NCBI RefSeq assembly: GCF_002085925.2
Contig: NZ_CP053562.1
Location: 352,001 to 416,000 of the forward strand
DNA from: Thioclava electrotropha
GTDB taxonomy: Bacteria > Pseudomonadota > Alphaproteobacteria > Rhodobacterales > Rhodobacteraceae
Length of the DNA: 64,000 nucleotides
Direction of reading: 5' to 3'
A model generated the notes under the pieces. That model saw only the letters and a list, made by a program, of their open reading frames with translations. It ran no database searches and was not told where the DNA came from. Of this stretch, positions 1 through 11,371 are shown piece after piece; position 1 is the stretch's first letter, and each line of letters begins with the position of its first letter. The position numbers were made by a program, and so were the translations under genes.

Positions 1-1122
1 CTCCCCGATCAGGATCGGCGTCGTACGCTGGTTGAGCGCCGACAGCCGCACCGAGGCCTCCTGTCCGACCTTGATCGCGTCGATATCGGTCCGTGCGATC
101 ATCGTCTCGATGATCAGCGGCGCTTCCGAGGGCAAGATCTCGGCGATCACCTTGCCCGCTTCGATCACGCCGCCCGCGCCGGAATAGTTCAGCCGCACCA
201 CGGTGCCCGACACGGGGCTGTCGATCACGACGCGCTTCAGGATGGAGGTCGCCTTGCGCTCTTGTTCGCGCACGGAATCCAGCTCCGCTTGCACGGTCTC
301 CAGCTCGTCGAGCGCGGCCTGCTTGTGGGTTTCGATCGTCTGCGTGGTCTGCGCCTGATATTTCGCGCGCATCTCCTCGCTCTCGCCGATCTCCGCCTTG
401 AGGCGTCCGATCTGCCCCTCCGCATCGGCCAGAGCACGCAGCAGGGCGTTCAATTCGGTCCGCCGGATCAGACCGCTCTCGTAGAGTTTCGCCTTGCTCT
501 CATGGTCCTGGGCCAGCAGGTCGCGCTGGGCCTCCGTGGCGGTCAGCTGCGCGCGATAGCCTTCCGCGCGGCTTTCCATGGCGGCGATATTGCGGGCCAG
601 AAGGTCCAGCTCGCTCTGCACTTTCGCCCTCGTCACCTCGAAGGCGAGGCGCTGCGAGTCCATCATCGCGGCGATCTCCGCATCGCGCCGGGCCTCCTGA
701 AGCCATTCCGGGAAGACCAATTCGCGCCAGCCGTCATATTCGGCCTGAATACGAGCCTCCATCGAGGTCAGTCGCGCACGGCGCAGAAACAGCGCGCGTT
801 CATTGGCCAGAGCCGAGGTCTCGTCGAGGCGCAGGAGCGGTTGCCCCGCCGTGACGAAATCGCCCTCGGAGACGTTGATCTCCTTGATGATCCCGCCTTC
901 GAGGTGCTGGATCATCTTGTTGCGGCCCGTGGCCACGAACGAACCGGGCGCCATCACGGCCGCCGCGAGCGGTGCGCTGAAGGCCCAGACACCGAAGCCT
1001 CCGAAGGCCATCGCGAAGATCGTCAGGCCGACGATGACGAGCGTCTTGATGTTGCGCGGGACCTCGGTCGACCAGTCGCGGGTCTCGGCAGATTGAATCG
1101 GGTTGGTCAGAAGGAGTGTCAT
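1..1122 (-). CDS. HlyD-family type I secretion periplasmic adaptor subunit (partial, 3' end outside window)
   Basis: Membrane fusion protein that would link the inner-membrane ABC exporter to a TolC-type outer-membrane channel. About 374 residues are visible. There is a short cytoplasmic N-terminus, one transmembrane segment (about residues 25-50), then a biotinyl-lipoyl-like half with HLEGGIIKEI and VSEGDFV, a long coiled-coil stretch rich in E, A, L, R and Q, and the returning lipoyl half (VIDSPVSGTVV). Coding continues past base 1, so the C-terminal beta-barrel is missing only because the window ends. The start ATG (1120-1122) overlaps the stop of the upstream ABC gene as ATGA, so the two are translationally coupled. 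Family assignment is secure; the exported substrate is inferred from the operon. Confidence 0.93.
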   Translation of the reverse strand, partial: MTLLLTNPIQSAETRDWSTEVPRNIKTLVIVGLTIFAMAFGGFGVWAFSAPLAAAVMAPGSFVATGRNKMIQHLEGGIIKEINVSEGDFVTAGQPLLRLDETSALANERALFLRRARLTSMEARIQAEYDGWRELVFPEWLQEARRDAEIAAMMDSQRLAFEVTRAKVQSELDLLARNIAAMESRAEGYRAQLTATEAQRDLLAQDHESKAKLYESGLIRRTELNALLRALADAEGQIGRLKAEIGESEEMRAKYQAQTTQTIETHKQAALDELETVQAELDSVREQERKATSILKRVVIDSPVSGTVVRLNYSGAGGVIEAGKVIAEILPSEAPLIIETMIARTDIDAIKVGQEASVRLSALNQRTTPILIGE

Positions 1123-3197
1123 GCCGGCGCTCCTTGCATGGGTGCGTTGGCGGTGGTGGTGGGTTGGGCCGCTGCGCGCTGTTGCTGGACCTGTTGAGTC
1201 TTGGCCTGCTTGCGTCGCTCCAGTTCCGCCAGCATCTGATCGCGCCAGCCGAACATCGCTATATTGCCGTCATTGAGTAGCATGATCTTGTCGACCGCGC
1301 TGAGCAGCGAGGGTTTCTGCGTGACCACGACCACCGTGATCCCGTTCGCCTTCGCATGGCCGAGCGCGCGCACGAGAGCCGCATCGCCTTGGGTGTCGAG
1401 GTTCGAGTTCGGCTCGTCCAGCACCACGAATTTCGGATCGCCGAAGAAGGCGCGGGCCAGACCGATCCGCTGTTTCTGCCCGCCCGAGAGCGGCGAGCCG
1501 TCGGAGGCCACGACCGTCTCGTAACCCTGCGGCAGCGAGGCGATCATCTCATGCACATCGGCGAGCGCGGCGGCGCGGTGGATCGCGGCGTCGCTCGCAT
1601 CCTCGCGCATCCGGGCGATGTTCTGCTTGATCGTGCCCGGGAAGAGCTGCACGTCCTGCGGCAGGTAGCCGATGCATTCCCCGAATTGCCGCGGGTCCCA
1701 GTTGCGGATGTCCATCAGATCCAGCCGCACAGCGCCCGAGGTCGGCAGGACCGATCCCACCAGCATCTTGCCGAGCGTCGTCTTGCCCGCGCCCGAATTG
1801 CCGATGATCGCCAGCTGATCGCCCGGCGCGAGCGAGAAGGTCAGCGCGTTCAGCACGACATGTTTGGTGCCCTGCGGGACATAGAGAAGACGCTCGATAT
1901 CGAGCCGCCCCTCGACCTTGGGCAGGCGCAGCTTGTCGTTACGGGTCTTGGCCGAGGCCAGAAGCTGACCGACCCGGTCATAGGCGCCGCGTGCAAGCAG
2001 GAACGAGTTCCAGCCCTCGATCGCACCTTCGATCGGCGCGAGCGCGCGGCCCGCCACGATCGAGGCGGCGATCACCATGCCGCCGGTGATCTGCCCGTCG
2101 AGCGCGAGATAGGCGCCCCAGCCGAGCATCCCGATCTGGGTGAACAGGCGGAACATCCGCGAGGCGGAGGCGGTGAAGACGTTGCGGTCCTGCGCCTCGG
2201 TCTGCGCGCGCAGCGAGGCGGCGGTATCACGGCCCCAGATCGATACGGCCTCCGGGATCATCGCCATCGCGTTGATGATCTGGCTGTTGCGCGACATCGA
2301 CTCGAGATGAAGGTTCGCCTTGGTCTGCGCGATATTGGCGCGGCGGAAGCCCTCCGAGGTTATCTTCTGGTTGATCCAGGCGAAGACCATCAGGATCAGC
2401 GCGGTGATGACCACGATCGTGCCGAGATGCGGGTGGATCAGGAAGACCGCGAGCACGAAAATCGGTGTGAAGGGCACGTCAAGAAAGGACAGAAGCGTGC
2501 CAGATACGAGGAAGCTCCGCAGCGCGTTGAGATCGCCCAGAACCTGATATTCGCGCCCGTTGGAATGCAGCGAGGCTTGCGCCGCCGCCGATAGAACCGG
2601 CGCGCCCAGACGGGCAGCCACATCCACCGCCGAGCGCATCAGCACCAGCCGTCGCACTGCGTCGAGCAGCGTCTGCACCACGATCGCCCCGACGATCACG
2701 ATGGTCAGCATCACGAGCGTATCGGTCGAGCGCGAGGTGAAGACCCGGTCGGAAATCTGGAACAGGTAGATCGGCACCGCGAGGATAAGGATGTTCGTGG
2801 CGCAGGTCATCAGAGCGACGAAGGCGATGTTCGCGCGCAGGCGCTTCTTCATGTCATGCAGCGTGCGGGTGAAATCCACCGGACCGAGGCGCTTGTGAAA
2901 GGTTGGAGTGGAGGGTGGCGCCGGTGGGGAGCCGGAGGCATTTTGCGCGGGGACACGACCCGCCTCCTTTTGGGTGTCAGCACCACCCTCCGTCCGGGCG
3001 GCGACTGTTTCGACAGTCCCCTCCGCGCCGGTCTCTTCGGCTTGCGTCTCCGCCTCGGGACCATCTCCCGTGGTGGCTTCCGCCTGCCGTTTGTCTGTCG
3101 GATCGACCTCTGGCCGGTCCTCGTTCTGAGCCATCGCGTCATGACCATCTTGGCGGTGCGCCTGCCCCCCGGCGGCGTCGTCAGTCCTGTCTTTCAT
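1119..3197 (-). CDS. Type I secretion permease/ATPase (PrtD-like ABC exporter)
   Basis: Inner-membrane ABC half-transporter of 692 residues that should export unfolded proteins with C-terminal signals. The order is an extremely hydrophilic, acidic N-terminal region of about 100 residues, a six-helix ABC membrane domain (about 120-390), then the nucleotide-binding domain. Walker A is GNSGAGKT at 466-473, the Q-loop is LPQD at 512-515, the signature SGGQK starts at 571, and Walker B is FVVLDE at 590-595. No C39 peptidase domain precedes the membrane domain. The H-loop position reads VVVTQKPS, so the usual switch histidine is Gln627 (codon 1317-1319). The gene lies between the putative cargo genes and the HlyD adaptor. 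The disordered N-terminal extension is unusual for the family. Confidence 0.95.
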   Translation of the reverse strand: MKDRTDDAAGGQAHRQDGHDAMAQNEDRPEVDPTDKRQAEATTGDGPEAETQAEETGAEGTVETVAARTEGGADTQKEAGRVPAQNASGSPPAPPSTPTFHKRLGPVDFTRTLHDMKKRLRANIAFVALMTCATNILILAVPIYLFQISDRVFTSRSTDTLVMLTIVIVGAIVVQTLLDAVRRLVLMRSAVDVAARLGAPVLSAAAQASLHSNGREYQVLGDLNALRSFLVSGTLLSFLDVPFTPIFVLAVFLIHPHLGTIVVITALILMVFAWINQKITSEGFRRANIAQTKANLHLESMSRNSQIINAMAMIPEAVSIWGRDTAASLRAQTEAQDRNVFTASASRMFRLFTQIGMLGWGAYLALDGQITGGMVIAASIVAGRALAPIEGAIEGWNSFLLARGAYDRVGQLLASAKTRNDKLRLPKVEGRLDIERLLYVPQGTKHVVLNALTFSLAPGDQLAIIGNSGAGKTTLGKMLVGSVLPTSGAVRLDLMDIRNWDPRQFGECIGYLPQDVQLFPGTIKQNIARMREDASDAAIHRAAALADVHEMIASLPQGYETVVASDGSPLSGGQKQRIGLARAFFGDPKFVVLDEPNSNLDTQGDAALVRALGHAKANGITVVVVTQKPSLLSAVDKIMLLNDGNIAMFGWRDQMLAELERRKQAKTQQVQQQRAAAQPTTTANAPMQGAPA

Positions 3198-3233
3198 CGA
3201 AGTTCCCCTAGTATGTGTAGTTCCGCGCCCCCG

Positions 3234-5528
3234 TCAGGCCAGAACCGTGTGCAATGCATCGAGCGACCCGCTTCCCCCGTGGGAGCCCGGATGCACCTGG
3301 AATTCCTCATCGTCGTAATTCGGCGTGTTCTCGATCATCCCGTCCGCGAGGAAGGCGACCGCCTCCGAGGCGAGCGCCCCTTCGCTGGAACTCGTCGGAC
3401 CCAGAGGATCACCGCTGCCGTCATCCATCATGCCCGCCTGCCAGATCACCGCGTCGGAATAGACGCCATCGGCGGCCATGATCGTGCTGTCGACACCCGC
3501 GACGGTCAGCGACGCGACATTGCCAAGCGTGTTGCCGCCAGCCTCGACGCCGAACTCGCCCGGCCCGTCGATCGAAATCAGGTCGGCGTCATCGAGTATG
3601 TTGATCTGGGTGAAGTTGTCCCGGATGACGAGGTCGCCCTCGATATAGAGCACCCGCAGCGCCATCTGGCCGCCGAGAAGCTCATCGCCCAGAAGCCCTT
3701 CGACCGCCTCGAAGGCCGCGCCCGGAGGCATCGAATGGTCTTCGCCCGCGTTCGGACCGAGGCCGCCGTAAATCTTGGCAAGCTGATCGAGGACGCTCTG
3801 ATATTGCGCGTCCATCTCCATGTACTGGTCGATGCCCACCTTGGTCAGATGCGCCTCGTTCCACAGCAGGTTATCCTCGCTCGACACATGGCCCGCGCCG
3901 CCATGCCCGACGCCGCCAGATCCGCTCATCACCAGATCGTCGTCGAGCAGCACGTTGATCTGCTCGAGCTGCGCGATCTCGTACATGTTGCCGCCGATCA
4001 TGATCAGATCGAACTGCGAACCGATTTCCAGCAACAGCTGCAAGTTGACGGTCGAGTTGTCGCCCATCACGATCTCGGCGGAATAGGAGCCGAATTCGAA
4101 GCTCACCAGATCCCCGTCGGAGACCGCGTTCACCTGAGTCGTATGGTTATCGATGATCAGGTCGCCGCGAATTGCCGTCATTGCGATCAGGCTGCTGCCA
4201 GCAGGCATGACGAGATTGAGGAAGTTCGCGGGATTGGCCTCTTGGGTGTAGACCGCGACGTTGTGAGCCTGCGAGGCGAGCGGGTCATAGCCCCCCGCGT
4301 TTCCGAGGCCGTTCCCGCCAGCGCTGTTTCCGGTGCCGTGATGGCCCAGTCCGAGCTTCATATCCACGTCGCGCAGCACGTTGACCTGCGAGATCACCGA
4401 GAGCGAGGTCATCGACCCGCCCACTGCGATGACCGGCGCATCGAGCCAGTCATGCACCGCCTGCGACTGGTTCAGCAGAAGGTTGTTGCCGGTGCTCAGG
4501 CTCTGCACGATTTCCAGCGCCAAGCCAGCCGGATCAACGGGCATGTCGGGGCTTTGGACCAGCCCGGCGGCCCCGTCTTCGCCGCCGATCCCGTCGATCT
4601 CGACCTCGACCACACCTTCGCCAAACGGTGCGTCCTCGTCCTCAGACGGATCGCGCGCTTCCAGCCGCAGCGTCAGCGTCTCGGGCATCTCGTCCATGAG
4701 CTGTCCGTCGAACACCACTTGGCCGGAGAAGGCGGGCGGAAGGGGGGAGGAGGCTTCCGCTTCACCGCCTTCGAGGCTTTCGTTTTCCAACTCGGTCATG
4801 GTTTCAGGATCGGAAGCGCCCGCTCCTGCGTCGTCTTCCGCATCGGTGTCGGAGGGCGCGGCGAAGATCGTCTCGCTACGGAACATCGCGGCCGTTGCGC
4901 CGCCGGGTACGGCCTCGGGATCGAGCGCGTCGATCTGAGCCATCAGCGTCTCTGTCTGCGCTTCGATGGTCGTGCCCACAGGCGCGGTGCTCACCGTCAG
5001 CGCATCGGCATAATCGGCCAGCGCCATCAGCTTCGACGCGGAGGCCTCCGGGCCGTATTCGTCCATCAGCTCCGCCGGCATCATGAAGGGCTTGTCGTAG
5101 AGCACGTCATGATCGTTCAGCGTGTTGATCTGCGAGGTGATATGGAGCACCGAGGAGGGCGGTGCCATTCCGAGGAACACCTGAAACGGCACCGGAACTG
5201 GCGGAAAATCATAGGGCGGGATCGCGAACTGGCCGGGCGGCAAGCCGGGAGGTGCGATGTCGCGCAACTGGTAATCGTCGACGAAGGGCAGCCAGGGCGC
5301 GCCGGGCGGCGGCGCCAGTGGCAGTCTCAGCTGCAGTGCCGGATCGAAATCTCCGAGCAGGTAATTGGAATCGACGTTGACGGTGACGGAGAGCAGAACC
5401 CCCGGTGCAGGCGTGGAGGCCTGCAGCGCGCGGAAAGCGTCGTATTCCTGTCGGGCGACATAGGTCTCGGTCGTCTGATTGAAGGCACCGATGAAATGGG
5501 CGATGATTTCGGTCTGCCGGTCAAGCAT
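3234..5528 (-). CDS. Putative type I secretion cargo protein with Q-N-L-D-D repeats
   Basis: 764-residue acidic protein with no family I can name. I start it at the second ATG (5526-5528) because a strong purine run, GGGGGGAAG, lies just upstream; the upstream in-frame ATG at 5546 has no such site. There is no N-terminal signal peptide. Five spaced copies of a motif Q-[IV]-N-x-[LV]-x-D-x-D occur near residues 133, 381, 465, 523 and 641, usually preceded by a short hydrophobic strand such as GDLIIDN or GDLVIRDN. Interleaved N-x-L-x-N motifs occur (GGNGLGN, GGNTLGN). The C-terminus SLDALHTVLA is short and hydrophobic, as in many type I secretion signals. Its position directly upstream of the exporter suggests it is secreted. 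Function (adhesin, matrix or surface layer) is inference. Confidence 0.7.
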   Translation of the reverse strand: MLDRQTEIIAHFIGAFNQTTETYVARQEYDAFRALQASTPAPGVLLSVTVNVDSNYLLGDFDPALQLRLPLAPPPGAPWLPFVDDYQLRDIAPPGLPPGQFAIPPYDFPPVPVPFQVFLGMAPPSSVLHITSQINTLNDHDVLYDKPFMMPAELMDEYGPEASASKLMALADYADALTVSTAPVGTTIEAQTETLMAQIDALDPEAVPGGATAAMFRSETIFAAPSDTDAEDDAGAGASDPETMTELENESLEGGEAEASSPLPPAFSGQVVFDGQLMDEMPETLTLRLEARDPSEDEDAPFGEGVVEVEIDGIGGEDGAAGLVQSPDMPVDPAGLALEIVQSLSTGNNLLLNQSQAVHDWLDAPVIAVGGSMTSLSVISQVNVLRDVDMKLGLGHHGTGNSAGGNGLGNAGGYDPLASQAHNVAVYTQEANPANFLNLVMPAGSSLIAMTAIRGDLIIDNHTTQVNAVSDGDLVSFEFGSYSAEIVMGDNSTVNLQLLLEIGSQFDLIMIGGNMYEIAQLEQINVLLDDDLVMSGSGGVGHGGAGHVSSEDNLLWNEAHLTKVGIDQYMEMDAQYQSVLDQLAKIYGGLGPNAGEDHSMPPGAAFEAVEGLLGDELLGGQMALRVLYIEGDLVIRDNFTQINILDDADLISIDGPGEFGVEAGGNTLGNVASLTVAGVDSTIMAADGVYSDAVIWQAGMMDDGSGDPLGPTSSSEGALASEAVAFLADGMIENTPNYDDEEFQVHPGSHGGSGSLDALHTVLA

Positions 5529-5555
5529 CTTACTTCCCCCCTTCATGACGCTGGA

Positions 5556-5577
5556 GACCCGCGCTTGGATGCGGGTC
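5556..5577 (-). other. Intercistronic inverted repeat
   Basis: Perfect 7-bp arms GACCCGC (5556-5562) and GCGGGTC (5571-5577) with an 8-nt loop, lying just upstream of the second cargo gene. A longer-range pair, ATCGCAT (5594-5600) and ATGCGAT (5639-5645), encloses the region between this hairpin and the next. Together they suggest a structured leader; no function is proven. Confidence 0.45.
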
Positions 5578-5666
5578 GTCAGACTGTCGGTTCATCGCAT
5601 CCGGCGGGCGAATGCCGCCGAGGTCAGGTCCGGGCGTGATGCGATGTGAAACGCCGGGAACGAGAT

Positions 5667-5694
5667 GCGGCGCGCCTCCGGGGAGGCGCGCCGC
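5667..5694 (-). terminator. Strong GC-rich intercistronic hairpin between the two cargo genes
   Basis: Perfect 13-bp arms (5667-5679 and 5682-5694) begin 8 nt after the stop of the first cargo gene. There is no U-tract after it on the minus strand, so it is more like an mRNA-stabilising or attenuating hairpin than a complete intrinsic terminator. It could make the first cargo gene much more abundant than the downstream genes. Confidence 0.6.
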
Positions 5695-5702
5695 GCAGGA
5701 GC

Positions 5703-7145
5703 TTATGCCCCGGTGGTGTCGTCGTCGCCGATATAGGTCGAGGACAGCGAGCCACCGACCACGGTGGTATCCACGGCGTTGCCGAGGATGTTGGCACCCA
5801 TCACGATCGACTGGTTGAACGCGGTGGTGTCGATGGCCGCGCTCGCATCGGCGTAGGACTGGCCGGTGACGATACCATCATCGCCATTGCCCGAACCCCA
5901 GTTGCCGAGACTGCCGCCATTGCCGCCGCCGCCTGCGGTGACGTCGCCACCGCCGTTACCGCCGCCAGCATAGCCGCCCGTCGCCCAGGAACCGCCGCCC
6001 GAGGCGTGCGAACCGGTCGAGGACCAGCCGTAGCCGTCGCCGCCAGCACCGCCGTTGCCGCCTTCACCGGCGCCGAGGCCCATACCATGGCCGACGCCCA
6101 TCGAGCCTGCGGTCGCGCCGCCGAACTCCATCGCACCGGCATCGCCGCCCGTCGCCAGTTCCGGCGAAATGATCGGAAGGATGTCCAGGCTACCCGTGTC
6201 GCCGCCGCCAGCGATCGCACCGGCGCCGCCGTCTTGCGCTGCGGCACCCGAGGCGCCCACACCCAGCCCGACGCCGAGACCGAAGCCTGCGCCGCCGTCA
6301 CCGCCGTCATCGCCTTCACCCTCGGTGTCCGAGGCCGCGATCGACACGCCGCCGCCCGACAGGGCGATACCGCCACCGGCAAGTGCAGCGCCACCGGTCG
6401 AGCCGACATCTTCGGCACCGTCGCCGCCTTCGGAGGCCGCGTCGATCCCGTCATCCGCCTCTGCCGAATTGTCCTTGATCGTAGCGTCGACCGCGAAACT
6501 CGAGTGGTTGGAAACGCTCGGATTGCTCAGCGTGTCGTTGTCGTTCAGGCTGTTCGACTGAGCATTGATGAGCATGTTGTCGTTACCCGCGCCGTTGAGC
6601 ACGTCGGTAAAGTTCATGTCATCGCCGGGATCATAGGCGTAGTTCATGTTGCCATCGGCCATCAGAACATCGCCGATGCTCGACGAGCCGCTCAGATCGA
6701 AATCGGCAAAGTCGTCATCGGACGGCTCGTAGCCGTCGAGGTTCAGACCGACCTGAACATCGACCGCAGTCAGGTTGGCGTTGAGGTTCGCATTGGCGTT
6801 GAGGTTGCCATTGCCGTTCATGTTCGTGTTGTCGCTGGAGCTATGAGCGCCAGCCCCTGCATGCGAACCGCTATGCGAGCCGGAATCGCTGTTCGAGCCG
6901 GAGCCCGCAAGCGCACCGGCACCGGCACCCGACATTGCGCCCGAACCCGCAAGGCTGCCAGCGCCCGAACCCGACATCGAGCCGGAGTCGCTGCTGTTCT
7001 CGGTGGTCGAGTGCTGATACTGGCCCTGACCCTGGCCCTGACCCTGCATTTCGGCCTGCGCCTGGCCCTGAGCTTCGGTCTGGCCCTGATTTTGACCCTG
7101 CACCTGGATGCTCGGATCGAACCAGTTATGCTTAAAGCTTCCCAT
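5703..7145 (-). CDS. Gly/Asp/Ser-rich low-complexity protein, putative type I secretion cargo
   Basis: 480 residues with strongly biased composition. The N-terminus is a Q/G repeat block (residues about 17-46, GQGQ-type), followed by a Gly/Ser/Asn block with GAGAGALAGSG-like runs, alternating LNAN repeats (about 112-125), an acidic central part, and long Gly-rich stretches. It carries one copy of the motif QSNSLNDND and one GANILGN, matching the repeats of the protein encoded just downstream, plus a single RTX-like GAGNDNML. The C-terminus is acidic, with hydroxyl residues (GDDDTTGA). There is no signal peptide and no cysteine. GGGAGT lies 7 nt before the ATG. It is the first gene of the operon feeding the ABC/HlyD exporter, so secretion is likely; function unknown. 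Confidence 0.65.
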   Translation of the reverse strand: MGSFKHNWFDPSIQVQGQNQGQTEAQGQAQAEMQGQGQGQGQYQHSTTENSSDSGSMSGSGAGSLAGSGAMSGAGAGALAGSGSNSDSGSHSGSHAGAGAHSSSDNTNMNGNGNLNANANLNANLTAVDVQVGLNLDGYEPSDDDFADFDLSGSSSIGDVLMADGNMNYAYDPGDDMNFTDVLNGAGNDNMLINAQSNSLNDNDTLSNPSVSNHSSFAVDATIKDNSAEADDGIDAASEGGDGAEDVGSTGGAALAGGGIALSGGGVSIAASDTEGEGDDGGDGGAGFGLGVGLGVGASGAAAQDGGAGAIAGGGDTGSLDILPIISPELATGGDAGAMEFGGATAGSMGVGHGMGLGAGEGGNGGAGGDGYGWSSTGSHASGGGSWATGGYAGGGNGGGDVTAGGGGNGGSLGNWGSGNGDDGIVTGQSYADASAAIDTTAFNQSIVMGANILGNAVDTTVVGGSLSSTYIGDDDTTGA

Positions 7146-7783
7146 TTTCTTACTCCCAGTTGATCGGTCCGGGATCCGTCACTCTATCTAAAACGGATAT
7201 GGTCGGACCTTCGTGATTAAGGGCTTTCGCCCCGGTGAATGTCCGCTTCCCCAACCGCTCGGCACCCCGATCCCGATCCCCGAATCGAGCGATTCGCAGG
7301 TGGGTCACCCTTTCCGGGCGGAGTGTGGAAACAGACGAGTCACAGCCCCCAGCTGCGACACCAACATCCTGCGCCCCGTGATCCTGAGGACCTAGCTAGC
7401 AAATGGGTCTAGCCGGTCGGGGCATCTTATTAACCGTCTGAAACGCATCCATTTTCCAAATTTCCGCGCGCAGGCACCTGCGGAATCCCGGAGGATCGCG
7501 GTGATTTTCACAAAGCCGTTGCAAATGCAGAAATTGGGACAAGGTCTAGTGGCGAAGCTAATGCGCGCTACCACTGGCGCGCGCCAGTAAGTGCCGCAGC
7601 GCAGAAATCCCACCACTCGCCCGCCGATTCGAGTAAGATTACGTTACGTAAGAGAATCCTTACCATCGGGTAAACACTTCGGGTAACGCTGATCTCACTG
7701 GTCCGTGATATGGTTGATGCGGGCGGTATGACGTGGGGTTAACCGTCCGCATATTGAGTTCAGGGTAGGAGGAGGGGGCCGCC
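7146..7783. promoter_or_regulatory. Divergent regulatory region between the secretion operon and the LuxR-type gene
   Basis: 638 bp without a convincing gene, lower in GC than its surroundings. It must carry the promoters of both divergent units. Visible structure: CGAATCG-AG-CGATTCG at 7281-7296, the perfect 16-bp palindrome ACTGGCGCGCGCCAGT at 7573-7588, and TTACGTAA at 7644-7651. I see no clear sigma-70 promoter. Confidence 0.6.
7573..7588. promoter_or_regulatory. Perfect 16-bp palindrome, candidate operator
   Basis: ACTGGCGCGCGCCAGT reads identically on both strands. It sits about 195 bp before the LuxR-type gene and about 430 bp before the secretion operon. A dimeric LuxR/FixJ-type regulator would be expected to bind a site of this symmetry. 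Assignment to the neighbouring regulator is inference. Confidence 0.4.
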
Positions 7784-8539
7784 ATGAATGCGTTGTATAA
7801 GAGTGAACCCGCGGGGAAACGTGTAATGCCGTCTTGCCGCAAACAGGATGCTGCGATCTGTTTTCTGGGCGCGTCGCAGATTTTTTCCGATACCGTAATG
7901 AGAACCGTCGATGCCGAGGTGGCACCGGCGACATGTCTGCGTCTGGATGATTTCGAAACGTTGCTCGAGGCGTTGCGGTCCGACGGTTGGATCGAGGATC
8001 ACGGTGCGCTGTGTTCGTTGATCGTGGATGAGGATCACGCCGATGGTCTTGTCGCGCTGGCCGAACGCCGTGAGCCGCTTCTGTCGCGTGTGAAGCTGAT
8101 CGTCGCGATTGAAGACGAGGCCTATGCGCAGGAACTGATGACGCGCCATAGCGCTGCGGTTCTGTCCCATCACATCAGTCTGCTGCCGATGAACGTCAAT
8201 CTGACGACGTGGCTCTTGATCCTGCGGATGATCGTCTCGGGGGGGCACTACATCCCGCCCGCGCTTCTGCGCTGCCGTCCGGCAGATCCACCGATCTCGG
8301 CGCTGAACGGATCGGCTGCAGCCAACGCGTCGCACGCGATCGACGTATCGGGGCTGACGCCGCGCGAAACCGAGGTGCTCGAGATGCTCGCCTCGGGGCA
8401 GCCGAACAAGATCATCGCGGGGCAGCTGAACCTGTCCGAACATACGGTGAAGCTGCATATCCACCGCATCATCGGGAAGCTCGGCGTCACCAACCGCACC
8501 GAGGCGGCGATCTGGTATCACCGAAACCGAAGTGCCTAA
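7784..8539 (+). CDS. LuxR/FixJ-type transcriptional regulator with degenerate receiver-like N-terminus
   Basis: 251 residues. The C-terminal HTH (about 191-247) is a clear LuxR domain: LTPRETEVLEMLASGQPNK, then a helix-turn-helix ending in HTVKLHIHRIIGKLGV. The N-terminal 170 residues resemble a receiver fold but lack the acidic pocket, phospho-Asp and Lys arrangement of a working CheY domain. This is the architecture seen in CsgD/VpsT-type regulators. GGAGGAGGG precedes the ATG. It is transcribed away from the secretion operon, so a role in controlling that operon is a reasonable inference, as CsgD-like proteins control extracellular matrix genes. Confidence 0.85.
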   Translation: MNALYKSEPAGKRVMPSCRKQDAAICFLGASQIFSDTVMRTVDAEVAPATCLRLDDFETLLEALRSDGWIEDHGALCSLIVDEDHADGLVALAERREPLLSRVKLIVAIEDEAYAQELMTRHSAAVLSHHISLLPMNVNLTTWLLILRMIVSGGHYIPPALLRCRPADPPISALNGSAAANASHAIDVSGLTPRETEVLEMLASGQPNKIIAGQLNLSEHTVKLHIHRIIGKLGVTNRTEAAIWYHRNRSA

Positions 8540-9056
8540 GGACCCGCCCACGCCGACGGAGATGCGCCCGCCGGATTTCGATCAGTTCCTGATGCAGATC
8601 GGGCGCATCAACTACGCGTGGACCAATACCGAGAGCCTGCTGATCCATCTGATTGCGGGGCTCGCCGGGACCGACAAGGGCGTCGCGACGATTATCCATT
8701 TGACGCTGAACACGACGCGGGCGCGGCTCGATCTGGTGGATCGGCTGGCCAAGCGCGACGACTGCCCCTGCGCGCCGAAGGCCTGCGAACGGGTGCTGGC
8801 GGTGTCCGCGCGGATGAAGAAGGTCTCGGGGCTGCGTAATCACTTCAACCACTGCCTCTACGCCTTCGACGAGGGCGGCGGGCCAGTGCGCGCAATCCAG
8901 ATGCGGATCGCGGATCGCAAGACCAGTCTGAGGATTGGAGAGGAAAGCGTTCTGGACCGCGCGACGCTTGCCGAGTTGGAAGCCGCGCTTGCCGAAATGC
9001 AGGCGATCAATGCCGAGATCTGGGCGATCGCCAAGGACTATGGAATGCCGCTGTAA
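8532..9056 (+). CDS. Conserved hypothetical protein, all-helical
   Basis: 174 residues if started at the GTG overlapping the LuxR gene by 8 bp, or 164 from the ATG at 8562. A GGAG sequence abuts that ATG too closely to be a good ribosome binding site, so the start is uncertain. The protein looks helical and soluble, with FDQFLMQIGRINYAWTNTE near the N-terminus, a central leucine-rich helix and a conserved-looking NHFNH. It has no catalytic motif I recognise. Overlap with the regulator implies co-transcription. Confidence 0.65.
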   Translation: MPKDPPTPTEMRPPDFDQFLMQIGRINYAWTNTESLLIHLIAGLAGTDKGVATIIHLTLNTTRARLDLVDRLAKRDDCPCAPKACERVLAVSARMKKVSGLRNHFNHCLYAFDEGGGPVRAIQMRIADRKTSLRIGEESVLDRATLAELEAALAEMQAINAEIWAIAKDYGMPL

Positions 9057-9095
9057 AGCGGGCAGGGGGCGGCTGCAGATACGCCACGCCGAAGC

Positions 9096-9482
9096 TCAGT
9101 TGCGCATCTGGCGTCCCAGCGCCTCGGCCAGTTCCCACGGGTTCGTCGGCTTCGAGAAGACGGGGATTTCCGGCATGATCGATTGCAAGGCGAGCGGCAG
9201 CGGCTCGGCCGTGTTCACCACCAAGGGCACTTCGCGTTTCCACAGCTCAACGATCAGGGCTTCTGCCGATCCGTCGAGCAGGTTCATGTCGAGGATCGCG
9301 CCATCGACGTTCATCGAGCTATCGGACAGCGCGGCACGCGCGCGCGCCAAGGTCGCGAAGGGCCCGGCAACCTGACCGCCCGCCTCCTCGACCGAGAAGG
9401 CGATGTCGTAGGCAATGAATAATTCGTCTTCGACCACGAGGACATTGCTGCCCTCGAGGCAAGTCATACTGCTCTGTAACAT
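9096..9482 (-). CDS. Single-domain response regulator (receiver only)
   Basis: 128 residues forming one CheY-like domain with all catalytic positions present: acidic pocket EDE at 18-20, phospho-acceptor Asp65 in AILDMN, Thr91, and Lys111 in FSKPTNP. There is no output domain, so it would act by protein contact or as a phosphate sink or shuttle. It starts 8 nt after the stop of the sensor kinase gene and is surely its partner. A second ATG at 9467 is possible. Confidence 0.88.
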   Translation of the reverse strand: MLQSSMTCLEGSNVLVVEDELFIAYDIAFSVEEAGGQVAGPFATLARARAALSDSSMNVDGAILDMNLLDGSAEALIVELWKREVPLVVNTAEPLPLALQSIMPEIPVFSKPTNPWELAEALGRQMRN

Positions 9483-9490
9483 GGGCTACA

Positions 9491-11371
9491 CTACCCTTTT
9501 ATCAGGTCCATTGGCACGGTCATGCGAGCTTGGAACCCGTCGGGAACCCATTCGGTTCCATAGGTTCCCCGCAATTGGCCCTGAATGGTCAGGTCGATGA
9601 GCTTGGATCCGAAGCCGCTGTTGCTCGGCTGCACCAGTTCTTCGGGATAGCCGCTTTCTCGCCAGTCGAGTTCGAGCTGCCCGGACGTGTCGCGCCAGCT
9701 CAGTTCCAGAAGCCCCGCATCATGCGAAAGCGCCCCGTATTTCACGGCGTTAGTCGCAAGTTCGTGGATCACCAGCGCGAGATTGGTCGAGCCCGCATGG
9801 TTCAGCGCGATATCGGGACCGTCGAGGATCAGGCGCGGATCGTCGAGATTGGTGTAAGGCGAAAGCACGCCCAGCAACAATTCGCGCAACTCGACCATGC
9901 CGCGGAAATCGCGCTCGGGCGTGGCGGTCGGATTGATCAGCTCATGGGCGCGGGCCAGCGCACCGATCCGCTCGCGCAGGCCCCGCGCCATTTCCTCCGG
10001 CGTCTTCGCATGGCGCGCGGTCATACCGACCAGCCCCGACATCATCGCGAAGGCGTTCTTGACCCGGTGGTTGAGCTCGCGCGTCAGCGTGTCGCGCGCT
10101 TTCGCGATCTGCCGCTCCTCGGTCACGTCGCGGAGATAGGCGAGGATCGCGCCGTGCTCGGGGTAAAGGCGTGCCTCCAGAATGCGGCCGTCTCGCCCGT
10201 CCTGATCGGTGACCGTCGGGACACCTGTGCGGCGGGCCTCTGCCAGAGCTTTTTCGAAACTGCTTCCGATCAGATGGGGCGCGGTCTCCCAGAGCGACCG
10301 CCCGACCGCCTGTGCTTCCGCCTCGGCTCCGACCGCGTCGCGGATGCGGGCGCGCATGACCGAATTGGCGAACCGGATTTTGTCTTCGCTATCGAGTTCG
10401 ACAATCGCGTCGAAGGTGATTTCGTGAAAATGCGCGAGCCGCCGGTCGACTTCGGCCGCATGTTCGCGCGCCGCGTTCAGATCGGAAATGTCGAGCGCGG
10501 TGGCCACGGCCACGGGCGGCTCGCTTTCGACCCGCTGCGCCGAGACCAGCAGATTGCGTTCCGGCCCGTCATGGCGCACGCAGCGCAATTCCATATGGCT
10601 GATCGTCTCTTCGTTGCGCGCCGCGCGTACGATCGGAAACTCGCTCAGGCTGAGCTTGCGCCCTTCTGGTGTGTAAGCGTCGAAGGCGAGCTGCTTGGTC
10701 ACGTCGCCGTCCGTCACGCCGAACATCTCGATCGCGGTGGCATTCAGATCGATAAGCCGACCGGTGCCCAGCTCGGCCACACCGACGCCGATCGGCATCT
10801 GGTCGAGAACGGCGCGGAACCGGTTTTCCTCACGATGGGCGACGTTGATCTGGCGCCGAAGACGGATTTCCGCCTCGACCCCGGCGGCGATGTCGGACAG
10901 CGCCTCGTATTCTTCCTCGGTCCACTGCCGCGCTTCCCGGTCGATCAGGCAGAACGCCCCCAGCGGCTGCCCGTCGACCGTGCGCAGCGGCACCCCGAGA
11001 TAGGCGGTCACACCCAGATCGCGCACGGCACCATTGTCGCGCAGCACCGTGTCCTCGCGCGCATCGGGCACGTTCAGCGGCGCATCGGATTCGACGACAT
11101 AGCGGCAGAAGGAATGGCTGAGCGGCGTCTCCGAGGGGGCAGGGGCGTCCAGCCCGGTTTGCGCCACGAAGACCTGCCGGTTATCATCAACCATGGAAAC
11201 CAACGAGACAGGCACTCCGGTCACACGGGTGGCGAGCCGTGTCGCGCGCTCGAAGATTTCCGCAGGCGCACTCTCCAAAAGACCGGTCTCGCGCAACGCC
11301 CGAAGGCGCGCCGGATCGGCGAGTCTGGACCGTTCTTCACCGGTCAGCGGAGGGGGCATAGAGGTATTCAT
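9491..11371 (-). CDS. HWE/HisKA_2-family sensor histidine kinase (GAF-PAS-PAS)
   Basis: 626 residues with no transmembrane segment. Order: GAF domain (about 30-170), two PAS domains (about 185-298 and 308-420), HisKA_2/HWE dimerisation domain with RELNHRVKNAF and phospho-acceptor His435, then a HATPase with HELATNAVKYGALS at 536-549 and a GFGSKLI glycine box near 586. The PAS domains lack the GXNCRFLQ cysteine motif of LOV photosensors. Such kinases in alphaproteobacteria often feed general stress or light responses; the input signal here cannot be told. A 14-bp palindrome lies about 50 bp upstream. It is the first gene of a two-gene unit with the receiver. Confidence 0.92.
   Translation of the reverse strand: MNTSMPPPLTGEERSRLADPARLRALRETGLLESAPAEIFERATRLATRVTGVPVSLVSMVDDNRQVFVAQTGLDAPAPSETPLSHSFCRYVVESDAPLNVPDAREDTVLRDNGAVRDLGVTAYLGVPLRTVDGQPLGAFCLIDREARQWTEEEYEALSDIAAGVEAEIRLRRQINVAHREENRFRAVLDQMPIGVGVAELGTGRLIDLNATAIEMFGVTDGDVTKQLAFDAYTPEGRKLSLSEFPIVRAARNEETISHMELRCVRHDGPERNLLVSAQRVESEPPVAVATALDISDLNAAREHAAEVDRRLAHFHEITFDAIVELDSEDKIRFANSVMRARIRDAVGAEAEAQAVGRSLWETAPHLIGSSFEKALAEARRTGVPTVTDQDGRDGRILEARLYPEHGAILAYLRDVTEERQIAKARDTLTRELNHRVKNAFAMMSGLVGMTARHAKTPEEMARGLRERIGALARAHELINPTATPERDFRGMVELRELLLGVLSPYTNLDDPRLILDGPDIALNHAGSTNLALVIHELATNAVKYGALSHDAGLLELSWRDTSGQLELDWRESGYPEELVQPSNSGFGSKLIDLTIQGQLRGTYGTEWVPDGFQARMTVPMDLIKG

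Follow-up and report, generated by a model that had tools for sequence, protein, structure and literature searches.

A type I secretion cassette with two paired candidate export proteins in Thioclava electrotropha and other Alphaproteobacteria

Known systems and family searches

Curli genes are organised as csgD and csgBA. A similar layout occurs in a 64,000-nucleotide stretch of the Thioclava electrotropha genome (NCBI RefSeq GCF_002085925.2, contig NZ_CP053562.1, positions 352,001 to 416,000 of the forward strand; hereafter the window), where a LuxR-type gene diverges from the genes for a Gln/Asn-bearing putative subunit and its partner, which we call A and B. The likeness extends to the predicted coils of B, which are about 23-24 residues long. 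However, there is no detected sequence homology to curli, the linked exporter genes encode a type I secretion system (T1SS) made of an ATP-binding cassette (ABC) protein and an HlyD-family adaptor, and the A monomer is predicted to be disordered. Membership of the curlin families was rejected, as none was matched at E<=1 by A, B, or 37 B and 29 A relatives. The Fap system (FapC) differs in a similar manner: the exporter genes here are T1SS genes and no family match was found.

The nearest studied protein in kind that we found is BapA of Paracoccus denitrificans. It is reported to consist chiefly of 891 Asp-Ala repeats, to be linked to a T1SS (bapBCD) that includes an outer-membrane gene, and to be required for Ca-stimulated biofilm (PMC5588039; biofilm also in PMC13235738). 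As in the cassette described here, a low-complexity acidic protein is encoded upstream of T1SS genes in the identical order (PMC5588039). The systems differ in that the composition of A and B does not correspond to Asp-Ala dipeptide repeats and in their gene sets; furthermore, the annotated loci L069, L070 and L074 list no outer-membrane gene next to HlyD, in tables that are incomplete. RTX proteins resemble A and B in being T1SS-linked, acidic and free of cysteine, but A and B have no nonapeptide array.

Set beside these systems, the A-B cassette is best read, from its sequence, as an undescribed T1SS-exported matrix or fibre system. No account of A, B or their cassette came up among the matches listed in our literature searches, a coverage outside which most subscription papers fall, and publications on Thioclava and biofilm (including PMC9226611), on biofilm plasmids and on exoproteomes gave no lead to the cassette.

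By database comparison, A and B appear as two protein families without a domain assignment. Neither matched a Pfam or NCBIfam family at E<=1 or a PADLOC model at E<=0.01, and PHROGs returned a single weak match for B (E 0.025) to a family of unknown function. Scanning the 37 B and 29 A relatives singly against Pfam gave matches by one member only (best E 0.014 for B and 0.021 for A). The absence of a classical RTX array, reported in an earlier reading made from the sequence alone (the sequence-only reading), was borne out: PF00353 was not among the Pfam matches at E<=1 in any of the 37 B or 29 A relatives, and classical RTX proteins were dismissed for want of both a nonapeptide array and a PF00353 match. 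A loose GG.G.[DN] pattern matched once in A and once in B; GAGND is largely conserved among A relatives, but conservation does not extend to the residue in the hydrophobic RTX position. A protein search with the B alignment yielded 23 matches, all within E 1e-125 and none from outside families. Searches of PDB sequences with the A and B profiles gave nothing meaningful, the best match in a viral fold library had an E of 0.022 and a probability of 0.04, and the VIA comparison covered 41 chains only.

Linkage of A and B to a type I exporter

The A-B-exporter locus is a five- or six-gene block (Table 1), larger than the sequence-only reading had it. That reading had placed an ABC/HlyD exporter next to two proteins lacking a signal peptide. 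Genes for a PrtD-type ABC protein and an HlyD-family adaptor indeed lie directly downstream of A and B, both above curated cut-offs, and no Sec signal was evident at either N-terminus when the sequences were inspected by eye. Of the four PrtD-type ABC proteins above cut-off in the genome, that of the cassette scores highest. Export by the T1SS is the likeliest fate of A and B, because the ABC and HlyD genes are dedicated, C39 peptidase is not among the Pfam matches of the ABC protein, A (57 acidic, 2 basic residues) and B (116 acidic, 19 basic) are acidic and contain no Cys, and one T1SS TolC above cut-off is encoded elsewhere in the genome.

Among 248 genomes of Rhodobacteraceae, B was found in 20 and A in 25, and A adjoins B in all 20 B genomes; the five surplus A matches (E 2.7e-5 to 4.6e-4) were dismissed, since they cover the Gln-rich start of the profile only. 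B is present in 12 of 16 genomes within the genus, the present genome included. A class-wide sample of 337 genomes contained B in two, one being the present genome, and the family of the second carrier has it in 6 of 75 genomes.

We compared 35 loci, the window among them, which were picked for the presence of B (or A, or a close ABC); they show conservation, not frequency. They take in six of the 11 other B-positive congeners and one other B-positive genome (L016-L022), all 18 further B-positive genomes of the 248-genome survey, the other match of the class-wide sample (L066), four of 32 plasmid records (L067-L070), three cassette carriers chosen from ABC matches among plasmid records (L071, L072, L074), and the single locus returned by a contig scan with one A relative (L015). 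Blast recovered A in 34 of these loci, B in 35, ABC in 34, HlyD in 34, LuxR in 33 and a 174-residue (174-aa) open reading frame (ORF) in 35; A of the 35th locus was recognised by eye. ABC and HlyD are missing from L046 because the contig ends, and no LuxR gene turned up in L066 or L068. Five additional loci, all five other matches in the second family (L090-L094), each carried A, B, ABC and HlyD, with the 174-aa ORF in four and LuxR in none; L091 lacks the ORF because its contig begins inside the A region.

The carriers span Rhodobacterales, Hyphomicrobiales and one further family of Alphaproteobacteria, and those named include Pacificibacter, Paracoccus denitrificans, Ensifer, Sulfitobacter, Cereibacter, Shinella and Sinorhizobium. 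In a plasmid cassette of P. denitrificans HAMBI_2443, A, B, ABC, HlyD, LuxR and the ORF were all matched. Among plasmid records, the best 31 ABC matches listed are 64-72% identical and the next, from Bradyrhizobium, is 49.8%; the latter locus (L073), an outside control chosen from the same ABC matches, has different upstream genes and no A or B match. Within the sampled genomes, A and B are strictly linked to each other and to the ABC-HlyD pair. Correlated distances are also expected from shared species ancestry.

As a separate observation on L073 (4524-10731), its related ABC gene (about 50% identical) is preceded by two different hypothetical proteins, one of them repetitive and 1253 aa long.

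Repeat units of B and their probable halves in A

B most likely starts at 5528 (764 aa), which GGGGGAAG precedes, rather than at 5546 (the 770-aa reading). Five copies of the strict motif Q[IV]Nx[LV]xDxD, as previously claimed, were counted in B (residues 139, 387, 471, 529 and 647 in 770-aa numbering), against 0.0004 expected per shuffled protein, and none was found elsewhere among the 565 ORF stretches of at least 60 aa in the window. Across 37 relatives Gln 133, 381, 523, 641 and 697 (764-aa numbering) are invariant, while Gln 465 and both Asp of four motif copies are nearly so. The 41 invariant columns are chiefly Gly, Asn, Gln, Asp and hydrophobic residues; Arg, Glu and Tyr account for one column each and Lys and His for none, His 11 being nearly invariant. 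D-x-D turns lie behind most copies of the motif.

The consensus unit of B, read off the alignment, is G-x-N-x3-N ... V-I-x-V-G-G ... I-x-Q-x-N-x-L-x-D-x-D. We cut B into units U1-U5 of 42-105 residues, the compact U1 and U3 having 49 and 52 and U4, with an insertion, 105, and compared them as profiles. The strict motifs sit in U1-U4 and in the first copy (133), which lies outside the profile test; in U5 the first half is present and the Gln motif is degenerate. Matches were strongest for U1-U3 (98.1%, E 7.6e-14), followed by U2-U4 (96.9%), U1-U4 (96.4%), U3-U4 (95.3%), U4-U5 (92.6%), U3-U5 (92.2%), U1-U5 (89.1%), U1-U2 (88.3%) and U2-U3 (80.2%); the U2-U5 comparison was unsupported (1.8%). The AlphaFold2 model of B opens with a long helix (residues 4-37) and continues in regular strand repeats, which we read as a predicted beta-solenoid, with Gln 133, 381, 465, 523, 641 and 697 all within long strands. 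Thus four of the five motif copies (U1-U4) align to a common unit, and all five, together with the degenerate sixth, fall in long predicted strands.

In A, the QSNSLNDND of the sequence-only reading was confirmed as the one copy of a looser pattern (residue 196; 0.0009 expected). The N-x-L-x-N motifs noted in the same reading are also present, GANILGN in A and GGNGLGN and GGNTLGN in B, but GGNGLGN (770-aa residue 410) lies outside the conserved unit and was dismissed as part of the repeat, being found in the closest relatives only; the conserved G-x-N-x3-N form occurs in B at 353, 495 and 670, in addition to (E)DNLLWN near 558. In a census made on whole open frames, the GAN motif was found in all 34 A frames; 27 contain the core Q-x3-[LVIM]-x-[DN]-x-[DN], and Asn stands third in 16. 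AlphaFold2 predicts A to be disordered (mean predicted local distance difference test score 43.7; predicted template modelling score 0.19). The most telling case for A keeping both motifs is the 183-aa A of Sinorhizobium meliloti Ak57, with QANSLADQD and GANLLSN kept and the long low-complexity part gone. The low-complexity part of A therefore appears expendable, since this short A retains just the two motifs, in agreement with the earlier suggestion that A has been expanded by low-complexity sequence.

In comparisons with the pooled B unit, the C-terminal block of A (GANxLGN...VVGG) matched the first half in register (probability 54%, E 1.3e-4), and the N block of A, QxNxLxDxD, matched the second half (21%, E 1e-3). 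None of 60 column shuffles came up to either score. With single units, one of 60 shuffles equalled the N block for U3 and one of 60 for U1, while U2, U4 and U5 gave no profile match to either block; unsplit alignments of A and B matched at 15%. These profile comparisons lend moderate support to A carrying both halves of B's unit.

Size and copy number of A and B also vary among loci. In L062, B is about 1250 aa and A a 1633-aa open frame in the same genome. Tandem copies of A lie upstream of B in L063 (9288-12558), and L066 and L091 likewise have two A.

Proposed role, alternatives and neighbouring features

In 26 of 39 loci the first 100 nt past the A stop hold a perfect stem of at least 9 bp, compared with 4 of 780 shuffled A regions. 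The same test gave 0/40 for B, 0/39 for ABC, 1/39 for the ORF, 0/33 for LuxR and 5/38 for HlyD. Most genera differ from one another in stem sequence, and behind 22 of the 26 stems the next eight bases contain fewer than five T; most of these hairpins are therefore not standard terminators. Intercistronic hairpins of the Rhodobacter puf operon set unequal subunit ratios. By analogy, a hairpin after A but not after B suggests that A is made in excess over B, which is its natural reading. We also compared the ratio of non-synonymous to synonymous substitution rates (dN/dS) with two congeners. All five genes are below 1, and A is the least constrained (0.49-0.57); the values are 0.19-0.22 for B, 0.12-0.21 for LuxR, 0.09-0.12 for ABC and 0.04-0.09 for the ORF.

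We give roughly even chances to the proposal, drawn from sequence and predicted structure, that the cassette serves to produce and export an extracellular matrix or fibre of two proteins, with A as bulk subunit and B as ordered partner. In this scheme the LuxR protein would switch on the divergent A-B-ABC-HlyD transcript, and the hairpin past A would leave more A message than B message. Both proteins would exit via their dedicated ABC-HlyD pair, to which a TolC-type channel encoded elsewhere would be joined. Outside the cell, B would fold as a rigid beta-solenoid whose Gln/Asn-bearing coils may seed or cap A, the two conserved blocks of A would supply the two halves of B's unit, and its low-complexity middle would be a spacer. 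A more specific form of the proposal, which we hold to be less likely than not, is a functional-amyloid-like T1SS fibre in which B would be the beta-solenoid nucleator of an abundant, disordered A that shares the split repeat; it would follow a curli-like gene logic with an ancestry separate from curli and Fap, and would include a dedicated regulator as well as a HEPN-like partner, possibly acting on RNA. The A-B profile match covers only 17-24 columns, so convergence is possible, and of the repeat once proposed as common to both proteins, what stands is that both half-units occur in A beyond column shuffles of the pooled profile, in a match that is moderate and short. Although CsgA was the first Foldseek row, its E of 0.39 is non-significant, and the resemblance to FapC is likewise non-significant and too weak for a fold claim. 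Whatever their role, A and B are strictly paired families beside a dedicated exporter in Alphaproteobacteria, and some records call B an ATPase. If a matrix is indeed made, the carrier bacteria would have a protein matrix system that is directly testable in laboratory strains, and type I secretion would join the routes that bring repeat-built fibres to the surface.

A and B may instead be exported without assembling a fibre and serve as a calcium-binding pair, either surface layer or adhesin, with a disordered A brush tethered by B. The D-x-D turns of B and the T1SS linkage are consistent with this, as is the precedent set by BapA, a T1SS-linked adhesin of low complexity and acidic composition (PMC5588039), but this reading leaves both half-units of A and the strict A-B pairing unexplained, and we judge it rather unlikely. 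It is improbable that A, B or both stay inside the cell as accessory exporter parts: the strict linkage to ABC and HlyD and the 'type I secretion protein ATPase' label of B in Sulfitobacter records would favour such a role, but no ATPase domain was matched by Pfam in B or its relatives, and A, as the least constrained gene, is more like a surface-exposed protein than a machine part. Enzymes with a beta-helix that are exported by T1SS exist, such as alginate epimerases, and B could similarly be secreted and work on polysaccharide as a beta-helix enzyme or binding protein, with A as spacer or carrier. Polysaccharide genes beside the Sulfitobacter faviae cassette and an oligosaccharide flippase gene near that of Shinella point in this direction; the residue make-up of B's invariant columns, which lack Lys and His, and the absence of a weighty enzyme family match argue against it, and we hold it to be as improbable as an intracellular role. 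The T1SS linkage is all that speaks for a toxin, bacteriocin or classical RTX protein with its partner. The lack of PF00353 among the relatives, the lack of a PADLOC match for A or B, and six cassette genes without an acyltransferase- or immunity-like member (no systematic comparison took in genes beyond these) make this very improbable.

HEPN ribonucleases bear an R-x4-6-H motif. The 174-aa ORF carries such a motif, RN-x3-H, whose R and H are present in 35 of 35 sequences, and RN-x3-H recurs in all four ORFs read from the second family. It had no convincing Pfam or PDB match, and is possibly, by its motif, a HEPN-type protein within a secretion cassette. Two Sinorhizobium loci still retain the ORF, although it is placed behind HlyD there.

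Table 1. Features of the cassette in the window
Feature	Position	Strand	Remarks
HlyD-family T1SS adaptor	1..1122	minus	incomplete at window start; TIGR01843 296 bits, cut-off 209
ABC permease/ATPase, PrtD-type T1SS, 692 aa	1119..3197	minus	TIGR01842 697 bits, cut-off 510
B	3234..5528	minus	764 aa; units U1-U5; predicted N-terminal long helix, C-terminal helix and disordered tail
Perfect GC-rich hairpin	5667..5694	minus	directly past A stop codon; strong U-tract absent
A	5703..7145	minus	480 aa; Gly/Ala/Ser/Asn/Gln-rich, acidic, Cys-free; Q-motif 196-204, C-terminal GANxLxN...VVGG block
Candidate operator GACCTAGCTAGCAAATGGGTCTAGC	7389..7413	plus	between A and regulator gene
LuxR/GerE-type regulator	7784..8539	plus	divergent from A; PF00196 E 4.7e-21
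174-aa ORF, R-N-x3-H motif	8532..9056	plus	overlaps LuxR regulator gene

The 17-base core of the 25-bp GACCTAGCTAGCAAATGGGTCTAGC element recurs with 0-3 mismatches in five of the six other congeneric loci examined and with 4 in the sixth. In other genera, the intergenic region between A and the regulator gave no match at up to 4 mismatches in the loci compared, and a general cassette operator was dismissed, the element being confined to genus level. Within positions 1-9200, no sigma-70-like promoter was found (1.4 expected), and terminator-like sites were set aside at 5 found against 5.1 expected.

In the Sulfitobacter locus L069 (8101-10209), B carries the label 'type I secretion protein ATPase', and glycosyltransferase and sugar-nucleotide genes flank the cassette. 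In the window, the cassette is adjoined at 9096-11371 by response regulator and histidine kinase genes. Neither is found in L015 or L022; among six congeneric loci, the response regulator is present in five and the histidine kinase, whole or in part, in four.

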